DNA of 22,708 nucleotides from NCBI GenBank assembly GCA_018985225.1, contig JADGIF010000080.1, positions 1-22,708 on the forward strand, in the 5' to 3' direction. Below are positions 1,672 to 22,708 of this stretch, piece by piece. The translations under genes and the position numbers were made by a program. The DNA is from Amoeboradix gromovi (taxonomy: Eukaryota; Sanchytriomycota; Sanchytriomycetes; Sanchytriales; Sanchytriaceae). Every line of letters starts with the position of its first letter. Position 1 is the first letter of the stretch. The notes beneath the pieces were generated by a model. That model worked only from the letters and a program-made list of their open reading frames with translations. It ran no database searches and was not told where the DNA came from.

Positions 1672-1822
1672 GTAAGATCGGTTTTAGTCCGAAGGGAGTA
1701 ACTAGTTAGGATTAGTCATTGGCAGTCATGAAATCAGCTTATTGCGATTCTATTACTTAATTGAGAATTCCTTTTATATTTTTATAAACATCTCTCCCAT
1801 TGATATTTCAAAACAACAAAAA

Positions 1823-2872
1823 ATGATTCCTTCTAAAGTTTATTACAACCTCGGACTGATTGTAGTTATAGCTGTGGTTTACTTTTACATTCCAATTCTA
1901 CATACAGCATGTGTATTTCTGCTTGGAATTTCAACATGGAACATCTATGAGGGATTGCAGATAAAACCAAAGAATCCGAAAATACAAATGACACCATATA
2001 ACAAGCGATCGGCAGAATCAGTCACTTCATCCAAATGGTCAGATTCTCTTCCGCCGTTAACTCCAATTTCACCTTTGCAAAAACAAAGTACCCCAACACC
2101 CTTGAGCCATACAAATACACCGCTGAATAAGATATTTGAGAAGGCAAAGCACTCTACAAGTAACACTATCCAGAAGTATCCAGTTACGATAAAGGAAGAT
2201 CAGGTTCATCTCATGAAGTCATGGATTGTAAACAAAATTCTCAGACCATTTGTGAAGGATTTGAAGTTAGTAAACCTTGTATATCCAATTGATTCAATGA
2301 TAGAACATCCGAATAAATCTATTCCTTTTGTTCCAATCGATGATCCTCTAATTGAATGCCAGGAACTACCCCAACTTCATCTAGATAACAAATGGGCATT
2401 GAAGCGATTTACTTACGAGATGTTTCTGCAGGTACCTGGTACAGATCAAAGTGGAGTAGCTAGAAAGTACTTAATAAACCGTATTAAGGAATTAGCTCAA
2501 CATTCACATCTCATAAACTACTGCACAGATTCTAAATCAATTCTGCATTTTCAGCCTACATTTGCTACGGATGGACAGATAGTATTGCATTTCGTAGACG
2601 TCTTTCTCAAGATAAATGCCCCTTACCATTCCCAGTCCATCTTACAGTTTATATGCTGTATGAACAGATTACCAGATGAGTATCATTTTAATAGCAATAG
2701 AACTTTGTACAAGCTAGATGAAAAGGACAGTCTTATGAAAGCTCTGGTTGCATTTGTTTTGTATATTGAAGAAGAATGCGGTGGATACTTTGGATTGTTA
2801 AATTTACACACCCCAATGGTTAATGTCCCGCATTTAAAAAGTAAGATAGAGGTCGGTGAGATTGAGCAATAA
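1823..2872 (+). CDS. TMEM209-like (CytochromB561_N family) nuclear-envelope protein
   Basis: 349 residues from the ATG at 1823; the frame is open further upstream but has no earlier ATG. Residues about 8-45 contain two closely spaced hydrophobic segments, likely a membrane hairpin. Residues about 50-105 are Ser/Thr/Pro-rich with many SP and TP pairs, suggesting a phosphorylated cytosolic or nucleoplasmic linker. The C-terminal half resembles the TMEM209/CytochromB561_N domain: a WALKRFTYEMFL stretch, a GQIVLHFVDVFL stretch, and a final block with YKLDEKDSLMKALVAFVLYI and GYFGLLNLHTPMVNV, matching the conserved C-terminus of that family. Family members sit in the nuclear envelope and associate with nuclear pores in animals; the fungal role is inferred. 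The TAA stop lies inside an AATAAA (2868-2873). Assignment is from remembered motif similarity, without a search. Confidence 0.72.
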   Translation: MIPSKVYYNLGLIVVIAVVYFYIPILHTACVFLLGISTWNIYEGLQIKPKNPKIQMTPYNKRSAESVTSSKWSDSLPPLTPISPLQKQSTPTPLSHTNTPLNKIFEKAKHSTSNTIQKYPVTIKEDQVHLMKSWIVNKILRPFVKDLKLVNLVYPIDSMIEHPNKSIPFVPIDDPLIECQELPQLHLDNKWALKRFTYEMFLQVPGTDQSGVARKYLINRIKELAQHSHLINYCTDSKSILHFQPTFATDGQIVLHFVDVFLKINAPYHSQSILQFICCMNRLPDEYHFNSNRTLYKLDEKDSLMKALVAFVLYIEEECGGYFGLLNLHTPMVNVPHLKSKIEVGEIEQ

Positions 2873-3360
2873 ACAAACTAATAAATTGTTTCAAATAACT
2901 AAAAGCCTTGATAGCAAATCCTTCTTTAGTTTGGTTCTGGCCCTACTGAAAGTTAAAAAGTTTACTTTATCAACATCCTTGAAGTAAATTTATGCTGAAA
3001 GCATTGTGAAAGCTCTTCATTTTAGCATTTTGCTTACCGAGTCCGTGGCACGGGAGCAGTAACAATCACATTAATTGTGTTAGCATTGCTTTTCGTATGA
3101 CGCCTTGCACATGGTGGAATTGAAGCGTTTTGTTGATAATTTTTAATCTTGAATGGAATTGAGATGCTCTTTTCAAACCGAGTACTTATAGAGCTCAGGT
3201 TATATGTTCTCATCATAGGATGATATAAATTGAGAGGATCCAACTGAACAGAGCATGAGATAGCACAATCTTTGACAGGCTTATAATTTGCATCCTCTCG
3301 AGATAATTGGTGATAAAAACTTAATGTATCGTTTGCAATTTTAATATTTTTGAAGCAGAA
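2873..3360. other. Intergenic region with a long antisense open frame
   Basis: 488 bp between the TMEM209-like gene and HIS6. The plus strand shows no gene. On the minus strand one frame is free of stops from about 3390 down to the TAG-free interval's TAA at 3034, roughly 118 codons, but its first ATG is only at 3216, giving 60 residues. The translation matches no family I recognise. See findings; I do not call it a gene. Confidence 0.5.
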
Positions 3361-4101
3361 ATGACAAAATTCAGACCATGCATTGATTTACATGACGGCA
3401 AGGTAAAGCAAATCATCGGATCCACATTGATGGACAGCAGTATGGAAACCAACTATATAGCAGATAAACCCAGCACGCACTATGCAGAACTGTATCGTAA
3501 GTACAAACTGACAGGAGGGCACTGCATAATGCTTGGGCCCAACAACGAGAAATCGTGTATGGAAGCAATCAGAGTGCACCCGATGCAGGTAGGTGGAGGT
3601 ATAGACATAGACAATTGCATAGGTTGGATAAGCAGCGGTGCAACACATGTAATAGTGACTTCGTACTTATTTGAGAACGGAGTATTTGAACTGAACAGGC
3701 TAGTAAAAATGGCAAGTCTCATAGGAAAGGATAGGATAGTCGTAGATCTGAGCTGCAAATTGATAAACAACGAATATCGTGTAGCAATAAACAAGTGGCA
3801 GACCATAACTGACCTGGTGTTGAGCAGAGAAGTGATCAAGGAAATCGAGCAGCATTGCGATGAACTGCTGGTACATGCTACCCATGTAGAAGGCAAGCAA
3901 TCTGGAATGGACTTTGAACTGATAAGATGCCTAGCTGAGTGGTGTGATATACCAGTCACATACGCAGGCGGAGCTAGAAGCATAGAGGATATAGACAAAT
4001 GCAAGCAGATATCAAAAGGTAAAGTGGATGTGACAATCGGAAGCGCGTTGGATATATTCGGAGGAAAATTGAGTTTTGAGGCAGTTGCAAATTATAGTTA
4101 G
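3361..4101 (+). CDS. HIS6: Phosphoribosylformimino-AICAR ribotide isomerase (histidine biosynthesis)
   Basis: 246 residues, complete and intronless, close to the length of yeast His6. It catalyses the Amadori isomerisation of ProFAR to PRFAR, the fourth step of histidine synthesis, on a (beta/alpha)8 barrel. Visible marks are the first strand FRPCIDLHDGKVKQIIG with catalytic Asp9, VGGGIDI (77-83), VVDLS with the second acidic residue Asp129, LLVHATHVEGKQSGMD (169-184), and the phosphate loops YAGGARS (201-207) and VTIGSALDIFGG (224-235). The extended eukaryotic type fits a fungus or plant rather than bacterial HisA. The gene ends in TAG and is convergent with the cyclophilin gene. An organism carrying it should make its own histidine, which argues against an extremely reduced intracellular parasite. 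Confidence 0.96.
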   Translation: MTKFRPCIDLHDGKVKQIIGSTLMDSSMETNYIADKPSTHYAELYRKYKLTGGHCIMLGPNNEKSCMEAIRVHPMQVGGGIDIDNCIGWISSGATHVIVTSYLFENGVFELNRLVKMASLIGKDRIVVDLSCKLINNEYRVAINKWQTITDLVLSREVIKEIEQHCDELLVHATHVEGKQSGMDFELIRCLAEWCDIPVTYAGGARSIEDIDKCKQISKGKVDVTIGSALDIFGGKLSFEAVANYS

Positions 4102-4271
4102 AGGATTCTTTATATTTGATATTTATTACTAATACCATTGAGATTTTGGCCGCATGTTTTACTTGCTGCTTGCAAGTATGTGAAGTGTAAATTACACCGA
4201 AATACTAAGCCTTTAGAAAACTTATTGCCGGGTTTATAATTATGTATTTGATATAATTAAAACTATTTACT

Positions 4272-5013
4272 TTAAAGTTCTTCAATTTTGTCTCCTTCCT
4301 CGGATTTCTCCTTCTTTTCTGCTTTCTTATCATCACTCTTCTTCTTGTCCTTTGAATGAGCCTTGTGCCAGTTCATACCATCATCTAATTTGATCATCTT
4401 CTCACCCTCTTTAAAGGGTTTAATTTTAATCTCTCCACATTCCTTGATAATAATTGGTTTGATTGGAGCATCTTTGTGGTCAGTTTTAGTTTTCTCCATC
4501 TTACGCACAACGTCCATACCTTCGACAACTTTACCGAATACTACATGTTTCTTATTCAGCCACGGTGTTGCCACGGTAGTGATAAAGAATTGACTACCAT
4601 TGGTGTCCTTCCCCGCATTAGCCATACTTAAATAACCTATATTACAATGACTTACCTGGATCTTTGTGAGTTAACTTGAAGTTTTCATCCTTAAATTTCT
4701 CACCATAGATAGATTTACCACCAGTTCCGTCACCTTTAGTAAAATCACCGCCTTGTAACATGAAATCAGGAATAATTCGATGAAACTTGCTACCTTGATA
4801 ACCCACACCCTTTTCCCCATCAATTTCAGTACCGTACGCTAAATCTACAAAATTTTTGACAGTTTTTGGAACGGTTTTACCGTATAAGCCAACCAAGATT
4901 CGACCGAGTTTCTTATCTTCTTGTGCAATGTCAAAATAAACTAGCTGAGTCATAACTGGCCCCTTGCCTTTATTGGTAGCGAATATCAAAGCAATCAAAA
5001 GAAATACCAACAT
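4272..5013 (-). CDS. Secretory-pathway cyclophilin (peptidyl-prolyl isomerase), two exons
   Basis: Join of exon 1 (5013-4656) and exon 2 (4636-4272) gives 240 residues. The 19-nt intron 4637-4655 interrupts a Gly codon; splicing restores the family sequence [19 protein letters not shown] (115-133). A short hydrophobic N-terminus (residues 1-12, ending LIFA) looks like a signal peptide, placing the enzyme in the ER as for cyclophilin B. The isomerase core spans about 22-195, with [15 protein letters not shown] (catalytic Arg79, Phe84, Gln87), SQFFITT (134-140), Trp145 at the cyclosporin-contact position, and His150. A Lys/Glu-rich tail (about 195-240) ends in -EEL, which is not a canonical HDEL/KDEL but could be a weak variant; this is inference. 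The start is shared across a 158-bp divergent promoter with the sorting nexin. Confidence 0.93.
4637..4655 (-). other. 19-nt spliceosomal intron of the cyclophilin gene
   Basis: On the minus strand the intron reads GTAAGTCATTGTAATATAG. It has a strong GTAAGT donor, a TAAT branch-like element and a TAG acceptor. Without removal the frame hits a stop soon after the donor; removal restores the conserved [10 protein letters not shown] block of cyclophilins exactly. Confidence 0.93.
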
Positions 5014-8036: not shown

Positions 8037-8764
8037 TTGTAATGAAACTTGAAATCGTAAGAAATTTATTATTTTACAGTCTAAATTAGTTTGGTAGTCA
8101 GTAACATGGTATGCTATCATCGATACGGTTCAGTAGCAGAACTGATCAATCTTTCAATATTGACTTACCTAGATCAAAATAAACTCCATGGAATTTTAAG
8201 CAGCTATTCGCGCTAATTTAAAATTGAATCTATCTAATATCTCAACGAATCCACTTGTCTAAATTAATAACTTTGTCTCAGAAACAAACACTAACATATC
8301 TTCATTATTCTGAGTGAGCTGAGTGTAATCGTCTTCAAAATTAAACTTACCTTAAAACAAAAATTAAGCAGTTTAGGATGGACAAGTACTAGAAATGATT
8401 TCCTCAATAGCAACAATTTGCCCCGAGAAACTCACGTAGACAGCGAATAAGCTACAGTTCTTGCTCAAACTTCCGGTGCCCTAAGACGGGATTCAATTAG
8501 CATGCATACAATTACGTGTTTCTTGTTGTAATAAAATTGTTATCCCGCTTCCAAATGACAATTGATAGAGGTATAAGCTTCAAGTTGCTTTCTATTATAG
8601 TATTACACTTTGTAACCGTTTGACTGGTAAATAGTTAATTACATTCCAAGTGCCGGCAATGTATTTCACCGTTTTGATTACTAATTTCAAGGAGCGTTCC
8701 TCTTTTTAACCTTTGCCGCAACTACAGGTGAGAATCATATACTGACGTGGCTGCGCGTCACTAA
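8037..8764. other. Intergenic region upstream of the coiled-coil gene and the tRNA
   Basis: 728 bp. The minus strand carries two GTAAGT donor-like sites (8345-8350 and 8163-8168), each followed 18 nt later by AG, but I could not build a reading frame through them. Short open stretches of 20-35 codons occur without ATG. No repeat was recognised. Confidence 0.4.
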
Positions 8765-8845
8765 GACTGGATGGCGGAGTGGTTATCGCGGCAGCCTGCT
8801 AAGCTGTTTCCTTCGGGAGCAGGAGTTCGAATCTCCTTTCAGTCG
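8765..8845 (+). tRNA. tRNA-Ser(GCU)
   Basis: A full type-II cloverleaf with long variable arm. The acceptor stem GACTGGA (8765-8771) pairs with TTCAGTC (with G-T wobbles), followed by discriminator G. The anticodon stem GCAGC/GCTGT holds the loop CTGCTAA with anticodon GCT, reading AGC and AGT serine codons. The variable arm is TCC-TTCG-GGA. The T arm is AGGAG-TTCGAAT-CTCCT. The A box TGGCGGAGTGG and B box GAGTTCGAATC are intact. No intron follows the anticodon. CCA is not encoded, as expected for a eukaryotic nuclear gene. Confidence 0.97.
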
Positions 8846-8854: not shown

Positions 8855-8980
8855 CACTAGTCATATTTACCTGTACAAATCAAGTTTTTAAATCATAGGA
8901 AATTCAGTGACATTTTGAACTCATTAATATTCAAGCAGTTTGTTCATATCTTAATAAATGCTTTTTGTAATGTAGAATTA

Positions 8981-9190
8981 AAAATAAACTAGTTCATATG
9001 CGTCATGTCTTAAGAACGAGATACTCAAAAGAATTACTTGATAATTGAATTCCATCAAAATATGATACGAATCTTCATGTTCCTATTCTTTATGAACAAC
9101 CCAAAAAGAAATTGAAAACTGTTAAAGATCTTAAGACCAAACAAGAGATTGATGAGAGATTTGAGATTTTTAAATTCGTTGATACAAGCA
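8981..9190 (+). pseudogene. Coding-like relic of unknown origin, abutting a transposable element
   Basis: One plus frame reads as protein-like sequence from about 8971 to 9190 with a single TGA near 9046: it contains VLRTRYSKELLDN, then the stop, then NLHVPILYEQPKKKL and EIDERFEIFKFVDTST. It ends exactly where the GGGACA element begins. It lies upstream of, and on the same strand as, a Fanzor C-terminal relic, so it might be part of the same decayed element; the sequence itself does not prove that. I recognise no domain. Confidence 0.35.
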
Positions 9191-9193
9191 CAT

Positions 9194-9643
9194 GGGACAT
9201 CAAATATAAAAACTGGACTAACTTTCTGCAACAACTTGGAACATTATTTCAGCTTTATTAGTTTTATGGATTTAAGAGGCGAGTGGACATTCAGCTAGTT
9301 GACGAGTATAAAAGGAAAATAAATAACTTTTTGTACAGCTATTCTCTTACTCTTTCGTTTAGTCTTTATTTCAAATAAAATATCACTATTACTCTTCAAA
9401 GAAATAGATAAGAGTAATGATGTTAGTATAGCATTACAAAGTGACTCTAGAAAAGAGTACCGTCTAAGACGATGCACCTTTTGCTTAGATGCTCAAAGAC
9501 CTCATCTACTTTTATTTTGAAGAGTGGATTGAAAGTAATGAAAGAAAATTGGTATAATAGAAGATCTTTTATTAATGATAGCATTTCCTCCGTATGGAGC
9601 ACCTTCGAAAACGAGTTAGTCTAGCTTTTATATTTGGTGTCCC
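9194..9643. mobile_element. GGGACA-ended element, copy A (450 bp, terminal inverted repeats)
   Basis: The left end GGGACATCAAATATAAAAAC and the inverted right end GGGACACCAAATATAAAAGC match over about 30 bp, continuing into ...GACTAACT. The flanking 4-mers (ACAT, ATTT) do not match, so the target duplication is eroded or rearranged. Compared with copy B it carries 179 extra bases (9279-9457) bounded by the direct repeat AAGAG (9274-9278 and 9453-9457). It has no intact transposase and is probably a non-autonomous, MITE-like element. Confidence 0.85.
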
Positions 9644-9858
9644 ATTTAATCTAGAAATGGTTCTAGGGTTGTCATATGCCAAACAAGATGTTAGAGAGTG
9701 AAATAGTATGGTTAGTGATTTACTATGGTGCTTGCAGTTATAAGCATGATAGAAAGTGCCATTTTAGGATCTCAATAAAAAAATTCTATAAAAGATATTG
9801 TATTTGCATATTCTTGAGTTTAACACAACCAAAGAGCGCTTAAATCTCTTGAATTTGA

Positions 9859-10041
9859 TGGAGAGTACAGAAGCACTCAGCGATATCATATAGAGCCAAA
9901 GGTTACGCCATTGTGGTTGTGGACAGAGATGGGAATGCATGTTGTAATAATCTTCAAGTGGTAGATAGTTTGCTAGCGAATGGTGAGAGGCCAGGTTGGC
10001 AACAAAGGATCACTGATAAAGTAGTTTCGCCTATTGCCTAG
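9859..10041 (+). pseudogene. Fanzor relic 1: C-terminus of a eukaryotic TnpB-like RNA-guided nuclease
   Basis: In the frame ending at the TAG 10039-10041, residues read KGYAIVVVDRDGNACCNNL (from about 9898), then SLLANGERPGWQQR. The block DRDGNACCNNL fits the RuvC-III motif of Fanzor/TnpB (RDxNAxxNxL, with the catalytic Asp), and a tail with NGxRPxxxxR is usual for Fanzor1 proteins. The upstream half and zinc ribbon are lost to stops and frameshifts; a neighbouring frame has EFDGEYRSTQRYHIEPK, which parallels the relic at 18050-18140. It is clearly non-functional. The call rests on motif reading, not a search. Confidence 0.6.
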
Positions 10042-10053
10042 GTGAAGAAATAT

Positions 10054-10136
10054 GGGACACTACTGTGAAAATTTCAACTGGGTAAATTTCGTCACTCGCT
10101 TTTTACCCCTAGTCTAGTTTTTACAGAGCATGTCCC
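10054..10136. mobile_element. GGGACA-ended hairpin element, copy D (83 bp) with ATAT target duplication
   Basis: GGGACA at the left and TGTCCC at the right are flanked by ATAT on both sides (10050-10053 and 10137-10140), a 4-bp target duplication. The whole element is an imperfect palindrome: the left arm GGGACACTACTGTGAAAA pairs with the right arm GGGACATGCTCTGTAAAA read on the other strand. The right arm continues AACTAGACT, as in the terminal repeats of the longer copies, which links the two families. It separates two Fanzor relics. Confidence 0.8.
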
Positions 10137-10140
10137 ATAT

Positions 10141-10639
10141 ATGAAATCAATGACTGGCAAGATAAAATTCTCTAATTCCTATTTCAAAGACAAGAGAAGA
10201 GCTAAACAGTCCTATTGGAATAAAGATCATCAAAGAAGAAATACTTATTGGAAGCTGGTAGTTATGTTCATTGTATTGGGAATCCACAGTTCAAAATAAA
10301 CTTATAATGTATGCATTATGTAATAGATCTAGAGTTGTTATTACACCAGAATTTAGAACCTCAAAGTTGTGTTGCAAGTGTCATCAAATCTTAACAAAAG
10401 AAACAATATCATTTGATGGTCAACGACAACTTTTGTTTAGAAATTTCCTCTTTGTATTTAATAGAGACATGAATGCATCTATAAGAATAGAAGAAGCTGT
10501 AAACTGTTATTGTAGCACCTCCAGGAAATTTGAATGGCAAGGAATGAACTTTGAAGCAACGATCCTTTGGGACACCCACAGCGTCCATCAAGAAACCCCT
10601 ATTCAATGTAATGCGTTGCATTTCTCAGATAAAGAATAA
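10141..10639 (+). pseudogene. Fanzor relic 2: zinc-ribbon and RuvC-III region of Fanzor1 type
   Basis: The open frame 10271-10639 has the diagnostic RVVITPEFRTSKLCCKCHQ (beginning about 10330), equal to the (D)EFRTSxxCxxCH start of the Fanzor1 C-terminal zinc ribbon. NRDMNASIRI follows near 10462, the RuvC-III motif. The second zinc pair is missing: the stretch RNFLFVFNRD has Phe where Cys would be expected, consistent with TGT to TTT decay. The upstream segment 10141-10270 (QSYWNKDHQRR, then FIVLGIHSSK and a stop) may be the preceding RuvC-II region, out of frame. No in-frame ATG precedes the motif by a normal distance. It ends 16 bp from the Rab gene, tail to tail. Confidence 0.72.
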
Positions 10640-10655
10640 TATAAATTTATTTAAC

Positions 10656-11303
10656 TTAGCATGAGCAATAGCTAGATTCTGTAGAAGGCCGATTAAATTG
10701 TATGCTTCTTACACTTCTCAAACTAGATGATCTCTTAACCTTCTTAGACAGCGATGGAATTATTACTCCAAGCAACGTCTGAAACACTTCGTTGATATTC
10801 AAATTAGTTTTCGCACTTACTTCGACATAAGTTGCGTTAATAGACTCTGCATATTTTGTGGCCTCTTGTCTAGTTATTTCTCTTTTTTGGTCTGATTTAT
10901 TTCCAACAACTACAATAGGAACACTAGGACAGTAAGCCTGCAACTCTTTATACCATTTATCAAGAGAAGTAAATGTTTCTTTATTACTCAAATCAAACAC
11001 TAATAAAACACCTTGTGCATTCCGGTAATACGAACTTGTCAGTTTGCTGAACCTTTCTTGACCAGCTGTATCAAAGCAGCATAGTTTGTAAGTCTTTTGA
11101 GCTTCAGAGACAGGTCCAACAACTTTCGGCGATAGTTCTTTGTCCTTAATTTCAGTTTCTTGATATTGAACCATTTTTAATTTGAAATCCACACCAATAG
11201 TAGTTATACTTTCATCTGTGAAGGTGTTTTCCGTAAACCTTAGCAATATGGACGATTTACCGGCATTGCTGTTTCCTATTAGCAGTATTTTTAGAGTTTC
11301 CAT
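10656..11303 (-). CDS. Rab18-like small GTPase
   Basis: 215 residues from the first ATG (11303). Rab proteins switch between GTP and GDP to direct vesicle or organelle membrane traffic. All G boxes are present: GNSNAGKSS (10-18), TTIGVDF of switch I (34-40), DTAGQERF (78-85), NKSD (135-138) and SAK (163-165). The C-terminus ends in C-S-C, a double-geranylgeranylation signal. The start METLKILLIGNS and the LLRFTENTF and RNAQGVLLVFD blocks are closest to Rab18 among Rabs I remember. An in-frame insertion of about 20-25 residues (about 47-70) sits between switch I and the DTAGQ box, in the beta2-beta3 hairpin; it has no intron signals of the 19-nt type. The usual WDTAGQE is FDTAGQE. AATAAA lies 4 nt past the stop. 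Rab18 proteins act at ER and lipid droplets; that role is inferred here. Confidence 0.93.
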   Translation of the reverse strand: METLKILLIGNSNAGKSSILLRFTENTFTDESITTIGVDFKLKMVQYQETEIKDKELSPKVVGPVSEAQKTYKLCCFDTAGQERFSKLTSSYYRNAQGVLLVFDLSNKETFTSLDKWYKELQAYCPSVPIVVVGNKSDQKREITRQEATKYAESINATYVEVSAKTNLNINEVFQTLLGVIIPSLSKKVKRSSSLRSVRSIQFNRPSTESSYCSC

Positions 11304-12015
11304 TTGTAGTTCAGTTTTAGAAGACGTTTGAAAATTTATAAATCGGTTAGAGCCAATCACATTGTAGCGAAGTAAATTAGTACTAGGAATTCATGGGGGC
11401 CAATGTAAAAACTGGATTCATTAACTTTAACCGAATTGCCACACAAGTCGTTGGCTAGACATTAGGCTGAGTACTTGTACTGTCATTTCATTTCTATCAA
11501 CCTGACATTTATTCTTATTCGCAGAGATTCTAAGGCTTCAATGACGTGGTAAATTGCTTTAATAACATTTTAATTTGGCTAGGTAGGTTTAGAAGTAGTT
11601 TGGGCGTCATTGTATAGTCGCATAACATTTCCGTTTCGTTGCAGTCTTTTTACTTTGAAGGCACATTATCTTCGGTAGTGAAATGTTCTAATGGCTTCTG
11701 TTAATTACACTCTTGTAGACCAATGTAAACCAAAGTATTTATCGTTAATTCTGTTCATGTGTACATAAATACCTGACTTCAGAACGCCGGGTTATTGTTT
11801 TCTATTGCAACGGAATTCAGGTCCAGCACAATAGCATTTAGCAGCCTCTCAAAGGTCCAAGCTAGCACCAGTAGCATTAGATCAAGTTGTCAATTCATGC
11901 TAAAAAAATCGTTAAGTCACAAGAATTCTATTAAGAATAGTGAGACAAGATTGGCAAGCAAGATTTTTTAGCGCATCCCAAATTCAATCACCCACAAATA
12001 TAATGAATAAATTTA
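11304..12015. other. Intergenic region, no feature seen
   Basis: 712 bp between the Rab promoter side and the first small secreted-protein gene. I saw no RNA gene, no GGGACA terminus, and no open frame with protein-like composition. It may hold the Rab promoter at its left edge. Confidence 0.55.
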
Positions 12016-12381
12016 CTAGAAAATCACAACTGCAAGCGGAAAAAAATGCAACACTACTGAACTCGAAATGCTGACAAAAGATATAGGCTTTTTGCTAGGG
12101 ATAGGCTCTCTTGACCCTAACACTGCCTTTGTAGCTTTGAAAAACTTAGTGGAGGTGTGAACTGAGGTTACATTTGTTCCATTTGAGTAGTATTTGATGG
12201 TCACATCAGCATCTACCGGCACTGTATCATTGAAGCTAGTACTATTAGACCATTGCGTGGTTGGTGTTGGTAATGAAGTATCAGAGTTAGGATACTGTAC
12301 AGCATTTATGGTGCCTATTGCACCATCGTTTATATCAAATGAGTTATACTGAGCTGAAATAATACATATGAAAAAATACAT
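12016..12381 (-). CDS. Small secreted, probably GPI-anchored protein (121 aa)
   Basis: The start is the ATG at 12381; the frame is open upstream but has no ATG. Residues 1-10 (MYFFICIISA) look like a very short signal peptide ending at Ala before Gln. The mature part has an Asp/Asn/Thr-rich stretch and four N-glycosylation sequons (NST, NDT, NGT, NVT). The C-terminus, after KKPISFVSISSS, is a hydrophobic run VVLHFFPLAVVIF typical of a GPI attachment signal. No catalytic motif and no recognisable family. It is the first of five minus-strand genes of similar design, which suggests a cell-wall or surface protein. Stop TAG. Confidence 0.68.
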   Translation of the reverse strand: MYFFICIISAQYNSFDINDGAIGTINAVQYPNSDTSLPTPTTQWSNSTSFNDTVPVDADVTIKYYSNGTNVTSVHTSTKFFKATKAVLGSREPIPSKKPISFVSISSSVVLHFFPLAVVIF

Positions 12382-12496
12382 TGTTTTAAATTTCGATAAA
12401 TTTTCAAAAGATTTAACTTGCGCATGACCCAACGTATTCTTGGCATGAGTGTTATCCAATACTAAAGAAAACTATTGAATATCAAATAACGGCTAT

Positions 12497-12751
12497 TTAT
12501 TGAATTAATCCAACGGCTCCTAAAAGTGCAGCAAGAGTGATTAAACTCGGAGTGCCAGCGGCTGAGTCGTCAGAGGTTGGTTTCTTTGTAGACGTCTCAT
12601 TTGTATCAGTGCTGTTGTCAATATTGGTTGAGTTTACTGTAGTTGCGGTAATGTTCGTTGAAGTAGAAGGATCGCTACTGTCTGTAACAATTACAGTACT
12701 GTTGGTAGAGTTTTGTGCAAATAGTAAAGTGAACAATAACAATGAATTCAT
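12497..12751 (-). CDS. Ser/Thr-rich GPI-anchor-type surface protein (84 aa)
   Basis: Signal peptide MNSLLLFTLLFA (12 residues, cleavage expected before Gln13), then a 50-residue low-complexity body made mostly of Ser, Thr, Asn and Asp with several N-glycosylation sequons. After TSDDSAAGTPS comes a hydrophobic tail LITLAALLGAVGLIQ suited to GPI transfer, with Ala-Gly or Ser as possible attachment sites. A TATAAAT box (12777-12783, minus strand) lies 32 nt before the ATG. The TAA stop is inside an AATAAA (complement of 12496-12501). The dense O- and N-glycosylation potential fits a fungal cell-wall or plasma-membrane mucin-like protein. The opposite-strand frame over the same interval is a shadow of this simple sequence. 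Confidence 0.75.
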   Translation of the reverse strand: MNSLLLFTLLFAQNSTNSTVIVTDSSDPSTSTNITATTVNSTNIDNSTDTNETSTKKPTSDDSAAGTPSLITLAALLGAVGLIQ

Positions 12752-12776
12752 GTTTAGAGCTTATGGAGTTATGGAA

Positions 12777-12783
12777 ATTTATA
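12777..12783 (-). promoter_or_regulatory. TATA box of the 84-aa surface-protein gene
   Basis: TATAAAT on the minus strand, first base 32 nt upstream of the ATG at 12751. A similar spacing is seen at three other secreted-protein genes nearby. Confidence 0.55.
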
Positions 12784-12942
12784 CTGTGCACAGATCATTA
12801 ATTTAATGAAATGTGCGAAGGGATGTCGCACACAGCGCCTACGTTAAATGTGAATAATTCGAAAATCATGAAGATTTCAAACCCACACTTCTCAAGTGTA
12901 GACAACTTGGGGAGATACTATTTGAGCATGTTCTTGCCTACA

Positions 12943-13377
12943 TTATTTTGAAGTACTCGGATTGATATCTCTATGGTCTTGGTGACCGCATTGTTGACAA
13001 TGAAACCATCTATCATTGACATTCGCTCGACTTTGATGATGGCATTTGAAGCAAGTTATGGTAGAATAGGCCTCATTAATAATCAATAAACTTTGGCCAT
13101 ACAATTTACATTTATGCGCTAGCCTTTGCTTGGATATGTAATGACGCAACGATTGAATCCTTTCATAACGCTTGCAGCTGCTACAAGTGTTGGACACATC
13201 ATATTGTTTTTGAATGGTCGCAAATCTAACGAACTTTGAGTTCTTTTCATTTCGCATATTCTGATGCGATAAAATTGCTCCAAGTCGTAGATCTGCAAAG
13301 TGTTGAATGGTGACAAAATACCAGTACCAATAAAAAGAAGTCCTGTGATATTGAGAGTTGTTTATTTTTTGTCTTTT
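12943..13377 (-). pseudogene. Fanzor2/TnpB-like relic with intact zinc ribbon
   Basis: A stop-free frame of 144 codons on the minus strand (13377 to the TAA at 12943), lacking an early ATG. It reads, in order, FADLRLGAILSHQNMR, SLRHYISKQRLAHKC, LLIINEAYSTITCFKC, WFHCQQCGHQDHRDIN. These correspond to the pre-RuvC lead-in, the hYxFkqrL helix, the (E)xYTSxxCxxC start of the zinc ribbon, the second CxxC, and the RuvC-III HRDIN motif of TnpB/Fanzor2 nucleases. Both Cys pairs and the final Asp survive, so decay is recent or the domain was kept by chance. The rest of the protein upstream is destroyed by stops (two TGAs near 13378-13387). This lineage differs from the Fanzor1-type relics in the same window. 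Confidence 0.78.
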
Positions 13378-13524
13378 TCACTTTCACGCCAGCGGGTTGA
13401 GATGTATGCGAAATGCACAATTTAAGACTACTAAAGTTGAGTTGTTAATTTGTGCGGTAAAACCATAAAATTACTAGAAACTTGCATTTTGAGATTTTCT
13501 AAATAGTTAACATAACATAATTTA

Positions 13525-13854
13525 CTACATTATTAGCGATAATACAAGCATGCAGACAAGCTGAGCTGCACCTGCTTGCACAGTTGAAGAGGTAGCGTCA
13601 CTTCCCTTTATTACTGCGTCATTTGTGCTACTTTTTGAACTCGGAGAATTTGCGTTATCAAGTGCATCTTGTACATTTTTTAAACATGTATCTTTACATG
13701 TTGAAAAGTTGCTGCTGTTTTGGCATGTCGTAGCGCAGTCTGCATCAGATTTGCTAGAATTAACAGCCTGAGTAACCGCATTCTTTTGGCTTTGAACCGC
13801 AGCATTAGTTGCCGCTTCATCAGCAATTGCTAGAATAAAAAAACAATGAAGCAT
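13525..13854 (-). CDS. Small secreted protein with twin CX3C motif and GPI-type tail (109 aa)
   Basis: Signal peptide MLHCFFILAIA (11 residues), then an Ala/Gln/Asn/Ser-rich helix-prone region. A four-cysteine block follows, CATTC...CKDTC, spaced C-X3-C-X8-C-X3-C, which could form a disulfide-stapled helical hairpin. Ser-rich sequence follows and a hydrophobic C-terminus (AAQLVCMLVLSLIM) of GPI type. Cytosolic twin-CX3C proteins such as small Tims share the pattern, but the signal peptide and tail argue for the cell surface. No family recognised. Belongs to the five-gene minus-strand cluster. Stop TAG, with no AATAAA close by. Confidence 0.7.
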   Translation of the reverse strand: MLHCFFILAIADEAATNAAVQSQKNAVTQAVNSSKSDADCATTCQNSSNFSTCKDTCLKNVQDALDNANSPSSKSSTNDAVIKGSDATSSTVQAGAAQLVCMLVLSLIM

Positions 13855-13909
13855 GGAGATAGGGGATCCAATGTTTTTAGCGAATTAAGTTGCTACCAAT
13901 AAAATTTCT

Positions 13910-14119
13910 TTATTCTATAGCTAGTAGAAGAGCCCAGGTTGAGATGTAATAATGCATAACTAATGCGGAATATCCACTAGTTTGAGTTTTTCCATTTGAA
14001 TTGGTACTACTAGTTTTGTTTCGAACAGCTGTTGCAATCTTATTCTTGATTTTATTTTTAGTATTCTGCGATATCTTTTGCGCCATGATGGATGAAAATA
14101 AAAGTAGCTCAAATTTCAT
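13910..14119 (-). CDS. Small basic secreted protein with hydrophobic tail (69 aa)
   Basis: ATG at 14119. Residues 1-13 (MKFELLLFSSIMA) form a short signal-like segment ending at Ala before Gln. The body is Lys/Asn-rich (NTKNKIKNKIATAVRNKTSS), then Ser/Thr-rich. The last 18 residues (about SALVMHYYISTWALLLAIE) are hydrophobic, ending in Glu, an imperfect GPI-type tail. A TATAAG box lies 28 nt before the ATG (complement of 14142-14147), and the TAA stop is embedded in AATAAA (complement of 13909-13914). These signals support a real gene despite its size. Function unknown; it resembles its neighbours in layout only. Confidence 0.58.
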   Translation of the reverse strand: MKFELLLFSSIMAQKISQNTKNKIKNKIATAVRNKTSSTNSNGKTQTSGYSALVMHYYISTWALLLAIE

Positions 14120-14141
14120 TCCTCAAGTTATTCTGCCTGAT

Positions 14142-14147
14142 CTTATA
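14142..14147 (-). promoter_or_regulatory. TATA-like box of the 69-aa gene
   Basis: TATAAG on the minus strand, 28 nt before the ATG at 14119, matching the spacing of the other TATA boxes in the cluster. Confidence 0.4.
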
Positions 14148-14767
14148 AGCTTATCTGTTTTAGAGAAACTTAGAGACGACTAAAAAATGTTTTTTGTGTA
14201 TTGAAATAACACAGCACGGAAATGTTATTTATCACTGAAGCAGCCGTCGTTCTAATCCTATAGTTTGCAGTTTTACTAGTTTGATAGTTTCTCACCGTTG
14301 TGTTGTTTGTCCAATGAACAGCTTGACTAATTCAATTTAGTACAATCATGAGATTTGAACTAAACCCCAAGACCCTGAATACGAGACGGTCTGCGAATGC
14401 TGCTCAAACTGTAATTGAAGGAACTATTGCAAGTGTTTTGTAGAATTAATTGAAATCCAACTATTTATTTCTAACCGCATACTTGTGCTCTTATTTGGTT
14501 TGTACCATGTAGGCAGTCATTGAAAGTGCCTAAGCTCATAGAGAGCTGATGCATGACGTCAATTATGTCAATATTTAAAACAGTTCTTGATAGGTATAAG
14601 ATATCCTGTAGTTAATTCAGGTATCTGAGTAGTTTTCGGAATTAAAAGAAGTGTGATTTCGATTGTGTTAACGGTTACGTGAAACTAATGACCATTTCTG
14701 GGACTTTGCAATGGTGAAAATAGTAGCTGACTAGCAAGATATGATATCGACATAGTAAACACCATCT
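14148..14767. other. Intergenic region, nothing firm
   Basis: About 620 bp. A 31-codon ATG frame at 14348 (plus) is too short to support. I see no RNA gene. The ATCT at 14764-14767 is the target duplication of the following element. Confidence 0.45.
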
Positions 14768-15061
14768 GGGACACCAAATATAAAACCAGACTAACTCGTT
14801 TTTAAAGGTGCACCATACGGATGAAATGCTATCATTAATAAAAGATCTTCTTTCATACCAATTTTCTTTCATTACTTTCAATCCACTCTTCAAAATAAAA
14901 CTAGAAGACCCTGCATCTCGTTCAAATATATGAGGTCTTTGAGCATCTAAGCAAAAGGTGCATTTTCTTAGACGTTACTCTTAAATCCATAAATTAATAA
15001 AGCTGAAATAATGTTCCAAGTTGTTACAGAAAGTTGGTCCAGTTTTTATATTTGATGTCTC
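14768..15061. mobile_element. GGGACA-ended element, copy B (294 bp) with ATCT target duplication
   Basis: Starts GGGACACCAAATATAAAA and ends in the inverted repeat TGTCTC preceded by TTTTTATATTTGA. The flanks are ATCT on both sides (14764-14767 and 15062-15065), a clean 4-bp target duplication. It is the reverse complement of copy A over both ends, including a shared GATCTTTTATTAATGATAGC-type internal block, but it lacks the 179-bp middle segment of A. No coding capacity. It lies between two surface-protein genes. Confidence 0.87.
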
Positions 15062-15120
15062 ATCTGTTTTGTAACCAGTTTCATCACGTTAATACCATTT
15101 AAAAATAATTACTTTATTAA

Positions 15121-15462
15121 TTATGCAAGATATAGAGCACCAATTGAGACGATGGCGATTCCTGCAACTGTTGTGCTAGCACCCGAGCCGGCGTTGCCTG
15201 TATTTCCGGAATTCGTACTGGAAGAATTTGTGGAAGTTGTATTGTCTCCACTGTTGTCTCCTTCGGTGGAATTGGAAGTCGAGTTATTCGAATCGCCCAT
15301 TCCATTGCCTGTAGTGTTTGCCTGAATCTGGTCTTTTACGTTGTTTGCTGCATCAGTTATCTTGTCCTTTATGTTGTTTGCAATATCTCCTTTATCGGCA
15401 TTTGGATCCTGTTGACCAGAAGATTGTGCAAATAACATCGTTACGAATAATAGCAATTTCAT
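15121..15462 (-). CDS. Secreted Asn/Ser/Thr-rich GPI-anchor-type protein with LEA-like helix (113 aa)
   Basis: Signal peptide MKLLLFVTMLFA (12 residues, cleavage before Gln13). Residues about 24-48 form an amphipathic segment DIANNIKDKITDAANNVKDQ, similar in rhythm to the 11-residue repeats of the divergent neighbour at 15721. Residues about 49-95 are almost purely Asn, Ser, Thr, Gly and Asp with many N-glycosylation sequons. The tail STTVAGIAIVSIGALYLA is a GPI-type signal. A TATAAAAA box lies 36 nt before the ATG, and an AATAAA starts 2 nt after the stop. The shared 258-bp promoter with the LEA-like gene suggests joint control. Probable surface or wall protein; no family recognised. Confidence 0.75.
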   Translation of the reverse strand: MKLLLFVTMLFAQSSGQQDPNADKGDIANNIKDKITDAANNVKDQIQANTTGNGMGDSNNSTSNSTEGDNSGDNTTSTNSSSTNSGNTGNAGSGASTTVAGIAIVSIGALYLA

Positions 15463-15490
15463 GTTTTACAGGAGGCTACTGTTTGTTTTC

Positions 15491-15498
15491 TTTTTATA
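15491..15498 (-). promoter_or_regulatory. TATA box of the 113-aa surface-protein gene
   Basis: TATAAAAA on the minus strand, its first base 36 nt upstream of the ATG at 15462, within the divergent promoter shared with the LEA-like gene. Confidence 0.6.
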
Positions 15499-15690
15499 CC
15501 TACAACCGCCAAGGAGGCCATTTGGACGTGTCAGCTATTTTTGCCAAACTAAACATCTGTTTTTGTCAAGTGCTGCATATCCGGATTGCTGTTTCAATTA
15601 GTCACATGCGCTGTATCCATATGAGTAATATGATTGCTCAAAATATTTTCAACGTTTAAACTCGCACATGCCTCTATATTTTAGATCCAA

Positions 15691-15698
15691 TATATAAA
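15691..15698 (+). promoter_or_regulatory. TATA box of the LEA-like gene
   Basis: TATATAAA, first base 30 nt before the ATG at 15721. This spacing leaves room for only a very short 5' untranslated region if the usual TATA-to-start distance of about 30 nt applies. Confidence 0.6.
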
Positions 15699-15720
15699 TT
15701 CGAATCTATAGTAAGCATTA

Positions 15721-17835
15721 ATGCTGCTTATCACATTTTCAATACTCGCATTTAACGACCCATTTAGGTACTCTTTGGAATATGCCAAGGATACAATCAA
15801 ATCAACTTCAACTTCGGTTTCTAGCTGGTTCCAATCTAAAGACCCCAATAAGTCTAACTTAGACGATTTGTTCCATGAATATTTCAACTCTCTAAACGTA
15901 GAACCTAGCAACCATATCTATGAGATTTACATGGAGACTTCCAAGGATTTGAATGTTGATAACCCGAACCTTAAAAATCAAATCTATAAGAGGATTGAGT
16001 ATATTGTCCAGTCTTCAGGGAACGCAGATATCAAGAGCAAACTTTTCAGTGCCCAGCATGCAAAGGATACGGCAGAATATGCTAAATCAAAGCTACAGCA
16101 ACACTCTCGGGAGCAAGACACTTCAAATAATGAATGGGATACTCCAAAGAGCGCTAAAGATAAATTAGAATATTACACTAATAGTCATGATAATTTCGAG
16201 GATTTGCATGATAGATATGATGATGTTAAACATACTGCCAAAGATACTGGAAAACATTATGCGAAAAAGGCCGCTGACGCAGTTAATAATGCGAAAGACA
16301 CCTCACAGGATGCTGCTAATCAGGCATCTAATAAAGTGAACGAAATGTCAGGAAAGGCTAGTGATATTGCTAAAGAATCGTATGAAAGAGGTAAAGAAAA
16401 AGTAAATCAAGGTAGTGAACAGTTTCAAGACACAGTCAGTAAAGCCTACGATTCTGGAAAAGATTCAGCTGATAATGCTTATAGTAGAGCCCAAGATGCG
16501 GCTAGCAAGGCTTACAACGCCGGCGAAGGTGTTATAAAGGACTCTGCTGCTCAAGCCAAACATAAAGCACAAGTCATGACTGACAAGTCTTACAGTGCTG
16601 GTAAAGACGCAGTTGATAATGCTAACGGTGTTTTTAAAGACACCGCTTATCAAGCGTATGATGCTGTGAAAGAGACAGCGAACAAAGCGTATGAAATTGT
16701 AAAAGATAAAGCTGAAAGCACTGCTGCGCAGGCATATGAAAAAGCAAAAGAGACCGCAAACGTGGTTTATGAAAAAGGAAAAGACACTGCTTCGGATGCT
16801 TATGATTATAGCAGAGGTGCTGCAAACGTTGCCTATGAAAAGGGAAAAGACACCGCAAATGTTGCCTATGAAAAGGGAAAAGATGCTGCAAACGTTGCCT
16901 ATGAAAAAGGAAAAGACACTGCTTCAGATGCTTATGATTATAGCAGAGATGCTGCAAATGTTGCCTATGAAAAAGGAAAAGACACCGCAAACGTGGTTTA
17001 TGAAAAAGGAAAAGATGCTGCAAACGTAGCCTACGAAAAAGGAAAAGACACTGCTTCAGATGCTTATGATTATAGCAGAGATGCTGCAAACGTGGCCTAC
17101 GAAAAAGGAAAAGATACTGCTTCAGATGCTTATGATTATAGCAGAGATGCTGCAAATGTTGCCTATGAAAAGGGAAAAGATACTGCTTCAGATGCTTATG
17201 ATTATAGTAGAGATCAGATAAACAACAACGCTGGTAGGGCATACATCAACATGAAAGACAAGGCTAATATGATGTATAATTCCGAAGATAATGTAAAACA
17301 AAACAAGATGCTAATAGACCCAATCAGAGCTCTAAGAGACGGATTTGTTGGTAAACTCAGCAATCTGTTGCAGTGGAATGACTATCTAGCAAGAAATGAC
17401 AAAATGTATACCGGATACAAGAGCATTCATGATTACCAGTCAAATGAAGATCTTCAGGGAGACTCAACCATTCTTGAAGATATTAAAGACTCCATGTATG
17501 ACAAATATGAGTATATGAGTCGGATGTTTGGATACTACAGTGACGCAGCTAATGAGAACTTGGAAAACTCTAACTTGAATCAAAAATTCAAAAACATTAA
17601 GCCAAGTCAAGGAGTGAAAGATCATTTAAATAATCTAGTGGGAAGAGACAATGTTGAGAATATCAAAGAAAATATTAACGAAAAATATAACAAGGCAGCT
17701 GAGGGTATTAAAAACAGTGGAGAGTATATGATGGAGAAGAAATCGGAAATAATTGATGATGTTGGTAACAAGGCTAAAAATATATATGAAGGAGCCTCTC
17801 CAAATGCAGACCCAATTGATTACGAAATAGTTTAA
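15721..17835 (+). CDS. Secreted LEA-like protein with 11-residue repeats (704 aa)
   Basis: Short signal peptide MLLITFSILA (10 residues). Residues about 15-110 are a helical, non-repetitive N-domain. From about 110 to 345 come imperfect 11-residue units rich in Ala, Lys, Asp and Tyr (such as AKDTSQDAANQ and AYNAGEG), like group-3 LEA (LEA_4) proteins. Residues 346-499 are 14 near-perfect 11-mers of two kinds, ANVAYEKGKDT (A) and ASDAYDYSRDA (B), in the order ABAAABAAABABAB. A non-repetitive C-domain (500-704) is Asn/Lys/Asp/Tyr-rich and helical. LEA proteins are hydrophilic, disordered in water, and protect membranes or proteins during drying; fungal Msc1 has comparable repeats in the ER and nuclear envelope. 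The export signal points to the ER lumen, wall or extracellular space. There is no GPI tail or HDEL. AATAAA lies 1 nt past the stop. Confidence 0.88.
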   Translation: MLLITFSILAFNDPFRYSLEYAKDTIKSTSTSVSSWFQSKDPNKSNLDDLFHEYFNSLNVEPSNHIYEIYMETSKDLNVDNPNLKNQIYKRIEYIVQSSGNADIKSKLFSAQHAKDTAEYAKSKLQQHSREQDTSNNEWDTPKSAKDKLEYYTNSHDNFEDLHDRYDDVKHTAKDTGKHYAKKAADAVNNAKDTSQDAANQASNKVNEMSGKASDIAKESYERGKEKVNQGSEQFQDTVSKAYDSGKDSADNAYSRAQDAASKAYNAGEGVIKDSAAQAKHKAQVMTDKSYSAGKDAVDNANGVFKDTAYQAYDAVKETANKAYEIVKDKAESTAAQAYEKAKETANVVYEKGKDTASDAYDYSRGAANVAYEKGKDTANVAYEKGKDAANVAYEKGKDTASDAYDYSRDAANVAYEKGKDTANVVYEKGKDAANVAYEKGKDTASDAYDYSRDAANVAYEKGKDTASDAYDYSRDAANVAYEKGKDTASDAYDYSRDQINNNAGRAYINMKDKANMMYNSEDNVKQNKMLIDPIRALRDGFVGKLSNLLQWNDYLARNDKMYTGYKSIHDYQSNEDLQGDSTILEDIKDSMYDKYEYMSRMFGYYSDAANENLENSNLNQKFKNIKPSQGVKDHLNNLVGRDNVENIKENINEKYNKAAEGIKNSGEYMMEKKSEIIDDVGNKAKNIYEGASPNADPIDYEIV
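16756..17217 (+). repeat. Tandem 33-bp repeat array inside the LEA-like gene (14 units)
   Basis: Fourteen 33-bp units encode 11-mers of type A (nine copies, ANVxYEKGKDx) and type B (five copies, ASDAYDYSRxx). Units are nearly identical at nucleotide level, with silent changes such as AACGTT/AACGTG/AATGTT, which implies recent expansion by unequal exchange. The last three AB pairs look like duplications of a 66-bp unit, while the earlier part repeats a 132-bp BAAA unit. Confidence 0.92.
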
Positions 17836-17926
17836 GAATAAATATTATTACAACTCCACGACTCTTACGTAACAATGTTTTTATTGTGAATGTCGCCCTT
17901 GTTCCATGGGGTATCTATATCAGAAG

Positions 17927-18200
17927 ATATCGCAAATCAGTGTGTGCGCTAGATAGAAGGACTTTAGAGTAGTTTATTGCAAAGCTGAGAAAATATAACG
18001 AGTGGTCTAAGTTCTCAGGGTAATGATAGCAAGTATAATAACATTCTACAATATCGCACAGTACCAATGTTGAGCCAGGTATACAAAGTGATGCAGTCGT
18101 GGACACCGATGTGAATGCATATAACAGCAATCTAGAGAACTGATAAAGTCTACTGAGCAATGTTAAAGTACAGGTTGGCAAAGAAGAGCAATTGCTAACA
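17927..18200 (+). pseudogene. Fanzor relic 4: decayed C-terminal RuvC-III region
   Basis: The frame around 18045-18143 reads HSTNVEPGIQSDAVVDTDVNAYNSNLEN before a TGA. The part VVDTDVNAYNSNLE aligns with VVDRDGNACCNNLQ of the relic at 9859-10041, and with the RuvC-III motif RDxNAxxN of Fanzor, though the Arg has become Thr. About 30 nt later, in another frame, STGWQRR parallels RPGWQQR of the same relic. Several stops precede it. DNA similarity between the two relics is visible in blocks such as GTGGACA and CAGGTTGGCAA. It sits between the LEA-like and ankyrin genes and is non-functional. Confidence 0.52.
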
Positions 18201-22079: not shown

Positions 22080-22564
22080 ACAAGGATGGACAATAGTGTT
22101 AGTAATCATATCCTGCTCTGCAAAGTTTTGATTATCAGCTCTCAAGCGAAAAAATGGCAAAGGAAAAACGAACTGACAGTGGATTTTGTTGAATAAAGAT
22201 ATATCGAGAGTATATGTCGTCTTCTATATTAATACTATTCTTTGCTAGACGCTTCGAATCGGATAAAAATGTGATGCCCTCGCTACTCATCGATGTCAAG
22301 TAGTTCTAAACCTCGTAATTGTGAACATGTCAGATCTAAAGAGATAACTAATAGATACAGTACACATTCATAGACATTGTGAAACTGGTTCAATAACAGG
22401 AAAACTAGATTTCTTTCAACGCTTTCTCATTACGCATTCAAATAGCGCTTGAAATCCAATGTACATTTAGAGAAAAGACCATAATTGAATTTAATGTAGC
22501 ATTTACTAATCAAACATGTACAAGAGTGTGCTTTTAAAGAATGCTGATTTGAAGATCTACACGT
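22080..22564. other. Intergenic region, nothing recognised
   Basis: About 480 bp of AT-rich sequence with stops in all frames. It may be further decayed retroelement. No RNA gene or repeat was seen until the GGGACA element begins. Confidence 0.4.
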
Positions 22565-22708
22565 GGGACACCAAATATAAAAACTAGACTAACTCGTTTT
22601 TAAAGGTGCACCATACGGAGGAAATGCTATCATTAATAAAAGATCTTCTTCTATTATACCAAGAATCTCTCATTGATTGTATTCCTCTTTTTAAAATAAA
22701 ACTAGAAG
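22565..22708. mobile_element. GGGACA-ended element, copy C (left part, continues beyond the window)
   Basis: Begins GGGACACCAAATATAAAAAC after ACGT and follows copy B closely for about 145 bp (for example TAAAGGTGCACCATACGG and GCTATCATTAATAAAAGATC), ending at AAAACTAGAAG. The right end, and thus the target duplication, is outside the window. Confidence 0.85.

Follow-up and report, generated by a model that had tools for sequence, protein, structure and literature searches.

How should remnants of RNA-guided nucleases lying close together in a fungal-type genome be understood: as separate fossils of full-length insertions, or as copies of elements that multiplied after losing their nuclease? 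The question is raised by 22,708 nucleotides of Amoeboradix gromovi DNA (the window, i.e., contig C346 of a genome assembly of 6,779,989 bases in 366 contigs), in which a preliminary description had claimed at least four Fanzor fossils of two TnpB/Fanzor lineages. Three of these four segments stand after profile searches, tblastn and comparison with shuffled sequences, and profile and tblastn matches place both lineages in the window; the segment at 18045-18200 is unsupported, and the proposed tally of three Fanzor1-like pieces and one Fanzor2-like piece gives way to two Fanzor1 pieces within one region and one Fanzor2. The Fanzor1 region is indeed decayed, as a fossil would be, but the Fanzor2 segment (12943-13377, minus strand) belongs to one copy of an element that carries an internal deletion and has been amplified. 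We consider it probable that this genome was invaded by IS607/Fanzor2 and Fanzor1 transposons and that deleted IS607/Fanzor2 derivatives spread in trans, with a 3’ end that possibly serves as a guide scaffold.

Short IS607/Fanzor2 elements in high copy

The Fanzor2 segment matched profile PF07282 (Cas12f1-like TNB) with an E-value of 1.4e-15 (hmmscan), which confirms it as a TnpB/Fanzor piece. It belongs within a repeated element that had gone unnoticed, which spans 13395-12836 on the minus strand and was delimited by repeated pieces, matches to contig C135 and common ends. This element, termed here element C, is the well-preserved, 560-bp long form of a non-autonomous IS607/Fanzor2 element, in which the beginning of a gene for an IS607 serine recombinase is fused to the last part of a Fanzor2 gene. 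Its open frame (12943-13377), open over 144 codons, passes from sequence of the recombinase start into that of the C-terminus of Fanzor2, 12946-13377 matching the C68-type Fanzor2 (tblastn E 2.3e-42). Positions 13265-13192 are about 79-80% identical to the recombinase-gene starts of C135 and C68 (79.7% for C135), 13132-12885 are 66.9% identical to the end of the C135 Fanzor2 gene, and 13157-12833 are 95% identical to C68. The ends of element C likewise match those of recombinase-bearing IS607 elements: the C68 right end does so at 95%, and the left ends of C135 and C68 carry, by eye, the same CCGTTG motif.

A genome search with element C gave 82 candidates, and the 40 scored yielded 61 matching pieces, most of them 90-97% identical within a full range of 81-97%. 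Among them is a 420-bp short form, in which query position 359 is joined straight to 500, and this junction is exact in 11 contigs (C88, C352, C29, C297, C184, C99, C120, C181, C21, C104 and C132). One junction common to so many places points to a single deletion that was later multiplied. Inspection of the ends covered 23 sequences from 22 different copies, L013 and L057 being one and the same locus. The left-end pattern was present in 20 of the 22 copies (12 with CCGTT before GGCGTG) and altered in two; the right-end pattern was present in 17, 16 times as TTTAACGTAG and once as TTTAATGTAGG, while two others carried one or two changes and three were cut short or truncated. No empty site was found among the loci compared, target duplication being judged only by eye.

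A second family, element A, consists of a Fanzor2 C-terminus and right end, measures ~620 bp and has sharp ends on both sides. Searching the genome with a 621-base query gave 556 candidates, of which 40 were scored (45 matches); these 40 copies were mostly near full length. The right-end pattern, at no more than three mismatches, occurs 370 times in the genome (control, 0) and the left-end pattern 341 times (control, 2), so that the detectable ends, about 340-370 of each kind, correspond to one element per 18-20 kb. From 76 copies chained in the loci compared, 48 counted as full and 36 remained after duplicate removal; 31 of these (at least 555 bp) were used and five shorter ones dropped. Their mean pairwise identity is 85.6%, by which element A looks older than element C. 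Longer, recombinase-less relatives at C61 and C241 extend into RuvC-I (DPGV) and C153 carries a RuvC-I fragment without the A part, indicating that element A is an internally deleted Fanzor2 element. The window itself holds two relics of it: an old one of the Fanzor2 C-terminal part at 8453-8649 on the minus strand (blastn ~65-70% over ~200 bp to copies at many loci; tblastn E 7.3e-6 for 8518-8646), and one at 22323-22565 on the plus strand (blastn 73% over 150 bp, 22419-22565; tblastn E 4.7e-8). No 2-10 bp target duplication was seen in the 31 copies. Transposition of the Helitron or terminal-inverted-repeat type was rejected for element A, given this lack of target duplication and ends that are, by eye, merely 4-5 bp alike.

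These data bear on the view of the preliminary description, in which each piece is the remnant of a separate full-length Fanzor insertion that decayed on its own. Such decay holds true for the Fanzor1 region (8864-10605) and the old element A relics. For elements A and C, however, it is refuted by the common ends and shared junction of the C copies, the hundreds of matches to each A end and the near-full length of most scored A copies, and as an account of the whole we regard it as very improbable.

We reached a similarly low estimate for the proposal that the 144-amino-acid C-terminal fragments are translated and might, for instance, regulate the nuclease. In 10 of the 31 A copies, some forward frame runs for 144 codons or more with no stop, and the C copy of the window is open over the same length. 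Yet changes in element A fall on the three codon positions with no clear bias (private changes 59/71/71, shared changes 28/29/38) and hence give no clear sign of selection on a protein, and the short form of element C has lost part of the zinc-ribbon region. On the same counts, element A was set aside as an unlikely protein-coding unit.

Do full-length relatives persist? A genome search with PF07282 gave 342 first-look candidates, and all 150 that were scored exceeded the family cut-off; serine recombinases (PF00239) occupy eight places (8/8 candidates scored). Contig C218 (11,469 bases) carries a 672-amino-acid Fanzor2 frame (L031:1476-3491, minus; PF07282 1.6e-18, PF12323 4.4e-6, NF040570 117.6 bits against a cut-off of 100), overlapped by an IS607 recombinase open reading frame (L031:2770-3399, minus; NF033518 6.6e-46). 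Its catalytic-type residues, with D471-P472-G473, P558 and E605, are invariant in 42 aligned sequences, E605 probably being the relocated (alternative) glutamate described in PMC10711439. Named homologues among the best 120 of 163 proteins at E<=0.001 come from brown algae and the yeast Lipomyces. The closest match of its structure model (mean predicted local distance difference test score, pLDDT, 67) is mimivirus Fanzor2, followed at a short distance by bacterial TnpB, consistent with a predicted fold like that of known Fanzor2. At C135 the recombinase is open and Fanzor2 is broken by a stop, and C313 has an open recombinase. The suggestion that active copies may remain elsewhere in the genome thus has long open frames of both kinds in its favor (748 amino acids for Fanzor1 at C351, 672 for Fanzor2 at C218), and the remaining full-length Fanzor and transposase genes might still drive the short copies.

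Two candidate partners of element A were rejected: C218 as its direct parent, having no A-like ends above shuffles, and the C313 recombinase, with no A-like ends in two stretches of 951 and 501 bases.

What the conserved ends may do

IS607 elements transpose through a circular double-stranded form, with crossover at a matching dinucleotide (PMC10711439, PMC6188088). We propose that the genome was invaded by IS607 transposons, carrying a serine recombinase and Fanzor2, and by Fanzor1 transposons, and that internally deleted derivatives would then have taken over. In elements A and C, the recombinase and the nuclease core are missing; a left end, the whole right end and the last Fanzor2 codons are kept. 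Since both ends are kept, the deleted copies could be moved in trans; we infer that this was done by the IS607 recombinase of full-length relatives, such as those with open frames at C218, C135 and C313. The retained 3’ end might in addition be a guide-RNA scaffold for an intact Fanzor2, with the flanking DNA as the guide, whereby the empty site of each copy would be cut and recopied.

Constraint on the ends of element A is evident from its variants. The ratio of variants shared by at least four copies to rare ones is 12:113 at the right end (458-621), 19:104 at the left end (1-164) and 88:180 in the interior; shared variants are depleted relative to the interior at the right (p 2.5e-7) and left (p 3.6e-4) ends, p-values that are indicative only, as the copies are related and the interior holds insertions and deletions. 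Per site, shared variants amount to 0.03-0.24 over the last ~250 bases (windows from 368 on) and 0.09-0.20 over the first ~160. When folded and compared with shuffles, the right end gave a mean z of -1.36, with 12 of 31 copies below -2, and the left end a mean z of 0.51, with none of 31 below -2. In the window, the candidate scaffold is the right end of element C (12836-12934, minus), which was aligned with 12 other right ends and whose folding is suggestive only. Constraint and folding are compatible with a guide-RNA scaffold, no proof of one, and we hold the idea that the 3’ ends of A and C act as guide RNAs to be a tentative one, somewhat short of even odds.

The same observations can also be accommodated if A and C are no more than usual non-autonomous derivatives of IS607, whose 3’ end is kept only for recombinase binding and gives rise to no guide RNA. 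The constraint on the left end of A fits this explanation, as do the absence of coding constraint, the weak covariation and the ~70 bp of left end that the TnpA of IS1535 protects (PMC6188088). It is less at ease with the greater length of the variant-poor stretch at the right of A (~250 bases against ~160), the better folding of that end, and the retention of 166 bp of right end by the short form of C. We assign it a real, if minority, chance of being right.

Several further results weigh against our proposal, some at the level of the RNA and others at the level of movement. The interior of element A (310-440) folds nearly as well as its right end (mean z -1.13, 7/31 below -2), a point that also suits ordinary IS607 derivatives. 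C-type right ends fold at z values ranging from -0.13 to -2.92, the families show two-sided change in only 2 of 19 predicted pairs, with a positive, i.e., unfavourable, covariation term, and the predicted closing stem is incomplete in C135, C116 and C20. No Rfam guide-RNA match was obtained in the four sources scanned, and a constrained 3’ end could serve recombinase binding alone. As for movement, no recombinase-bearing element with the ends of A was found in C218, C68, C304 or the parts read of C313, a search that left out C254, C96 and C49; C218 is 54% identical to A over 98 amino acids; and the left part of A had no recombinase match in Pfam (three copies) or NCBIfam (two copies). Two apparent empty sites of A proved to be one and the same locus and not a true empty site, leaving the insertion dinucleotide unconfirmed among the loci compared, and the AG found near both ends of A (63% matching) is the best signal among many offsets tried. 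Finally, no intact nuclease was found near element C, as the C135 Fanzor2 contains a stop.

A bolder version of our proposal is that each of the several hundred short, non-autonomous IS607 elements is a guide-RNA gene for its own insertion site, and that a single intact Fanzor2 protein, or a small number of them, uses these guides in trans. The recombinase would paste and Fanzor would recopy, and the guide genes would have lived as parasites on the nuclease genes and taken the place of most of them. We rate this as unlikely; if true, RNA-guided homing would operate in a eukaryote as a natural, multiplexed network across the whole genome.

Fanzor1 remains and other features of the window

The decayed Fanzor1 region (8864-10605, plus strand) lacks its middle, holds an internal stop and has another transposon nested within it. 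Its N-terminal part, at 8864-9183, corresponds to residues 14-109 of the 748-amino-acid frame of C351 (tblastn E 5.5e-15; blastn 71% for 9007-9111). The segment 9859-10041, claimed to be Fanzor, has no Pfam match on the plus strand (hmmscan), yet it aligns with the C-terminus of that frame: 9910-10005 matches residues 690-721 (tblastn E 0.002, 50% over 32 amino acids) with a score of 70, reached by none of 300 shuffles, the best of which scored 41. The claimed segment 10271-10639 was borne out by PF07282 (E 2.8e-6 for 10262-10639, plus) and lies largely within a C-terminal part with 3’ end at 10137-10605, which covers residues 586-727 (tblastn E 1.7e-38, spanning 10138-10561), is 73% identical to L032:3800-4273 by blastn and carries the RuvC/zinc-ribbon motifs EFRTSKLCCKCH and NRDMNAS. 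Both C-terminal pieces match one Fanzor1 protein within one region, and the order of the pieces, along with the nested element, suggests two related copies or one rearranged copy. Absent from the preliminary description were the pieces 8864-9183 and 10138-10251 and the two element A relics. At 18045-18200, the stretch read has two stops, no tblastn match was found at E<=1 among the nine proteins used as queries, and shuffles reached its score in 18 (Fanzor1 C351), 63 (Fanzor2 C218), 121 (C68) and 4 (C9) of 300 cases; the value for C9, the lowest of the four, stays as a weak hint.

Elsewhere in the genome, Fanzor1 gave 57 matches (60 of 67 candidates scored), including long frames of 748 amino acids at C351 (L032:2046-4289; PF07282 8.3e-9) and 693 at C39. 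Both keep DPG, TPEF-TSKLC (one residue differs) and DRDVN, a pattern that we take to be of the Fanzor1 type. A search of 5.8 billion proteins, limited to those sharing short words, found only these two Fanzor1 proteins, both of this genome, and no relatives outside it; there was no sequence match in PDB, and the model built from the two-sequence alignment had a pLDDT of 30.5. The Fanzor1 element ends in short inverted repeats (by eye). In C73, C315, C169 and C144, N- and C-terminal Fanzor1 pieces are found near each other with the middle absent, so the Fanzor1 lineage may likewise have been a source of short derivatives.

The nested transposon, element B, is short, has inverted ends and lies at about 9186-9648 on the plus strand (9193-9648 match L010:641-1104 at 78%). 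Further copies lie on the minus strand at 14764-15068, delimited by repeats and matches to other loci, and at 22564-22708, cut by the window end (94% to L010:959-1100). Genome-wide, 694 occurrences of its end motif were counted (control, 0); among the 100 places listed, many lie no more than a few hundred bases from where a contig ends, and element B may therefore break the assembly. By eye, the end of element B resembles that of the Fanzor1 element (GGGACATC).

Contig C9 (L033, i.e., C9:2500-12000) contains at 1590-4502 a Tc1/mariner-type transposase (PF13358 3.2e-15) together with a 299-amino-acid Fanzor frame (PF07282 2.5e-8), flanked by 25-bp perfect inverted repeats. This is another Fanzor lineage in the genome.

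A tRNA-Ser (GCT) lies at 8765-8845 (plus), directly upstream of the Fanzor1 remains, and 10068-10140 is a dispersed short repeat with 87-92% identity to C218 (L031:4272-4344) and C304 (L035:2718-2788). Four short open frames on the minus strand (12016-12471, 12497-12760, 13525-13884 and 15121-15465) are hydrophobic near the start, polar and Ser/Thr/Asn- or Ala/Ser-rich in the middle and hydrophobic at the tail, and by eye they resemble putative small anchored surface proteins. A 706-amino-acid open frame at 15715-17835 (plus) has in its middle 12 overlapping repeat copies, spaced mostly by 33 nt (11 residues). GC content is 36.24% over 196,387 bases of the genome; PMC8371127 gives 36.27% for Amoeboradix gromovi and 34.64% for Sanchytrium tribonematis, both assembled with SPAdes in single-cell mode, so that the value fits the sanchytrid fungi, with Amoeboradix as the likeliest host. 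The enolase of the genome has two neighbours of 88-89% identity, one in EukProt and one in NCBI/ENA, and no other among the 120 best of 7,997 exceeds 69%.

Comparison with known systems

Fanzor-less “ghost” loci of ~550 nt were described in Spizellomyces punctatus, where they number 134 against 42 Fanzor loci, retain the two ends of the transposon together with the 3’ guide-RNA region, and supply guide RNAs that worked with SpuFz1 (PMC10432273). The comparison in that work also took in ghost loci of G. theta and of two Fanzor2 hosts, N. lovaniensis and M. mercenaria; whether ghost guides naturally work in trans was left open there. Elements A and C resemble them in being short Fanzor-less loci of a fungus that keep their ends and 3’ region and outnumber the Fanzor genes, and we hypothesize, by analogy, that they might work with Fanzor2 as the Spizellomyces ghosts do with SpuFz1. 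The Spizellomyces ghosts have 30-nt inverted repeats with no transposase found within, and those of the other three species are reported to lack both inverted repeats and a clear link to a transposase (PMC10432273). A and C differ from the published ghosts in their IS607 origin, the recombinase genes present in the genome, the absence of long inverted repeats, the retention of Fanzor2 C-terminal codons and the size of one family, about 340-370 detectable copies in 6.78 Mb.

Much is also shared with the IS607-type elements that carry Fanzor2 in eukaryotes and giant viruses, namely a serine recombinase with Fanzor2, DPG, the probable relocated glutamate and, as far as the copies of A show, no target duplication; high-copy, internally deleted derivatives are not among the descriptions in the portions consulted (PMC3627910, PMC10711439), nor did we find such derivatives described for a eukaryote in the open-access literature, as far as its accessible text goes. 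In Cyanidioschyzon, the Fanzor element CMe-1A has about 150 copies and its short relative TE-N2_CMe about 70 (PMC3627910), a pair that resembles the present case in high copy number, a short relative and lack of inverted repeats; however, TE-N2_CMe matches the 5’ 635 bp, whereas A and C keep the 3’ end with Fanzor codons. The transposase and Fanzor of C9, one copy of which was examined, recall the Fanzor1 of mariner-type transposons (PMC3627910).

Recombinase genes and a long open nuclease frame thus sit in one small genome alongside hundreds of guide-like copies, which form two families (A and C) of different age. The dependence of nuclease-less copies on Fanzor, and the help of Fanzor in the spread of IS607 in a eukaryote, become directly testable there. 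The ghost pattern itself was already known; what A and C add to it is the tie to IS607/Fanzor2, the high copy number and the fungal-type genome.

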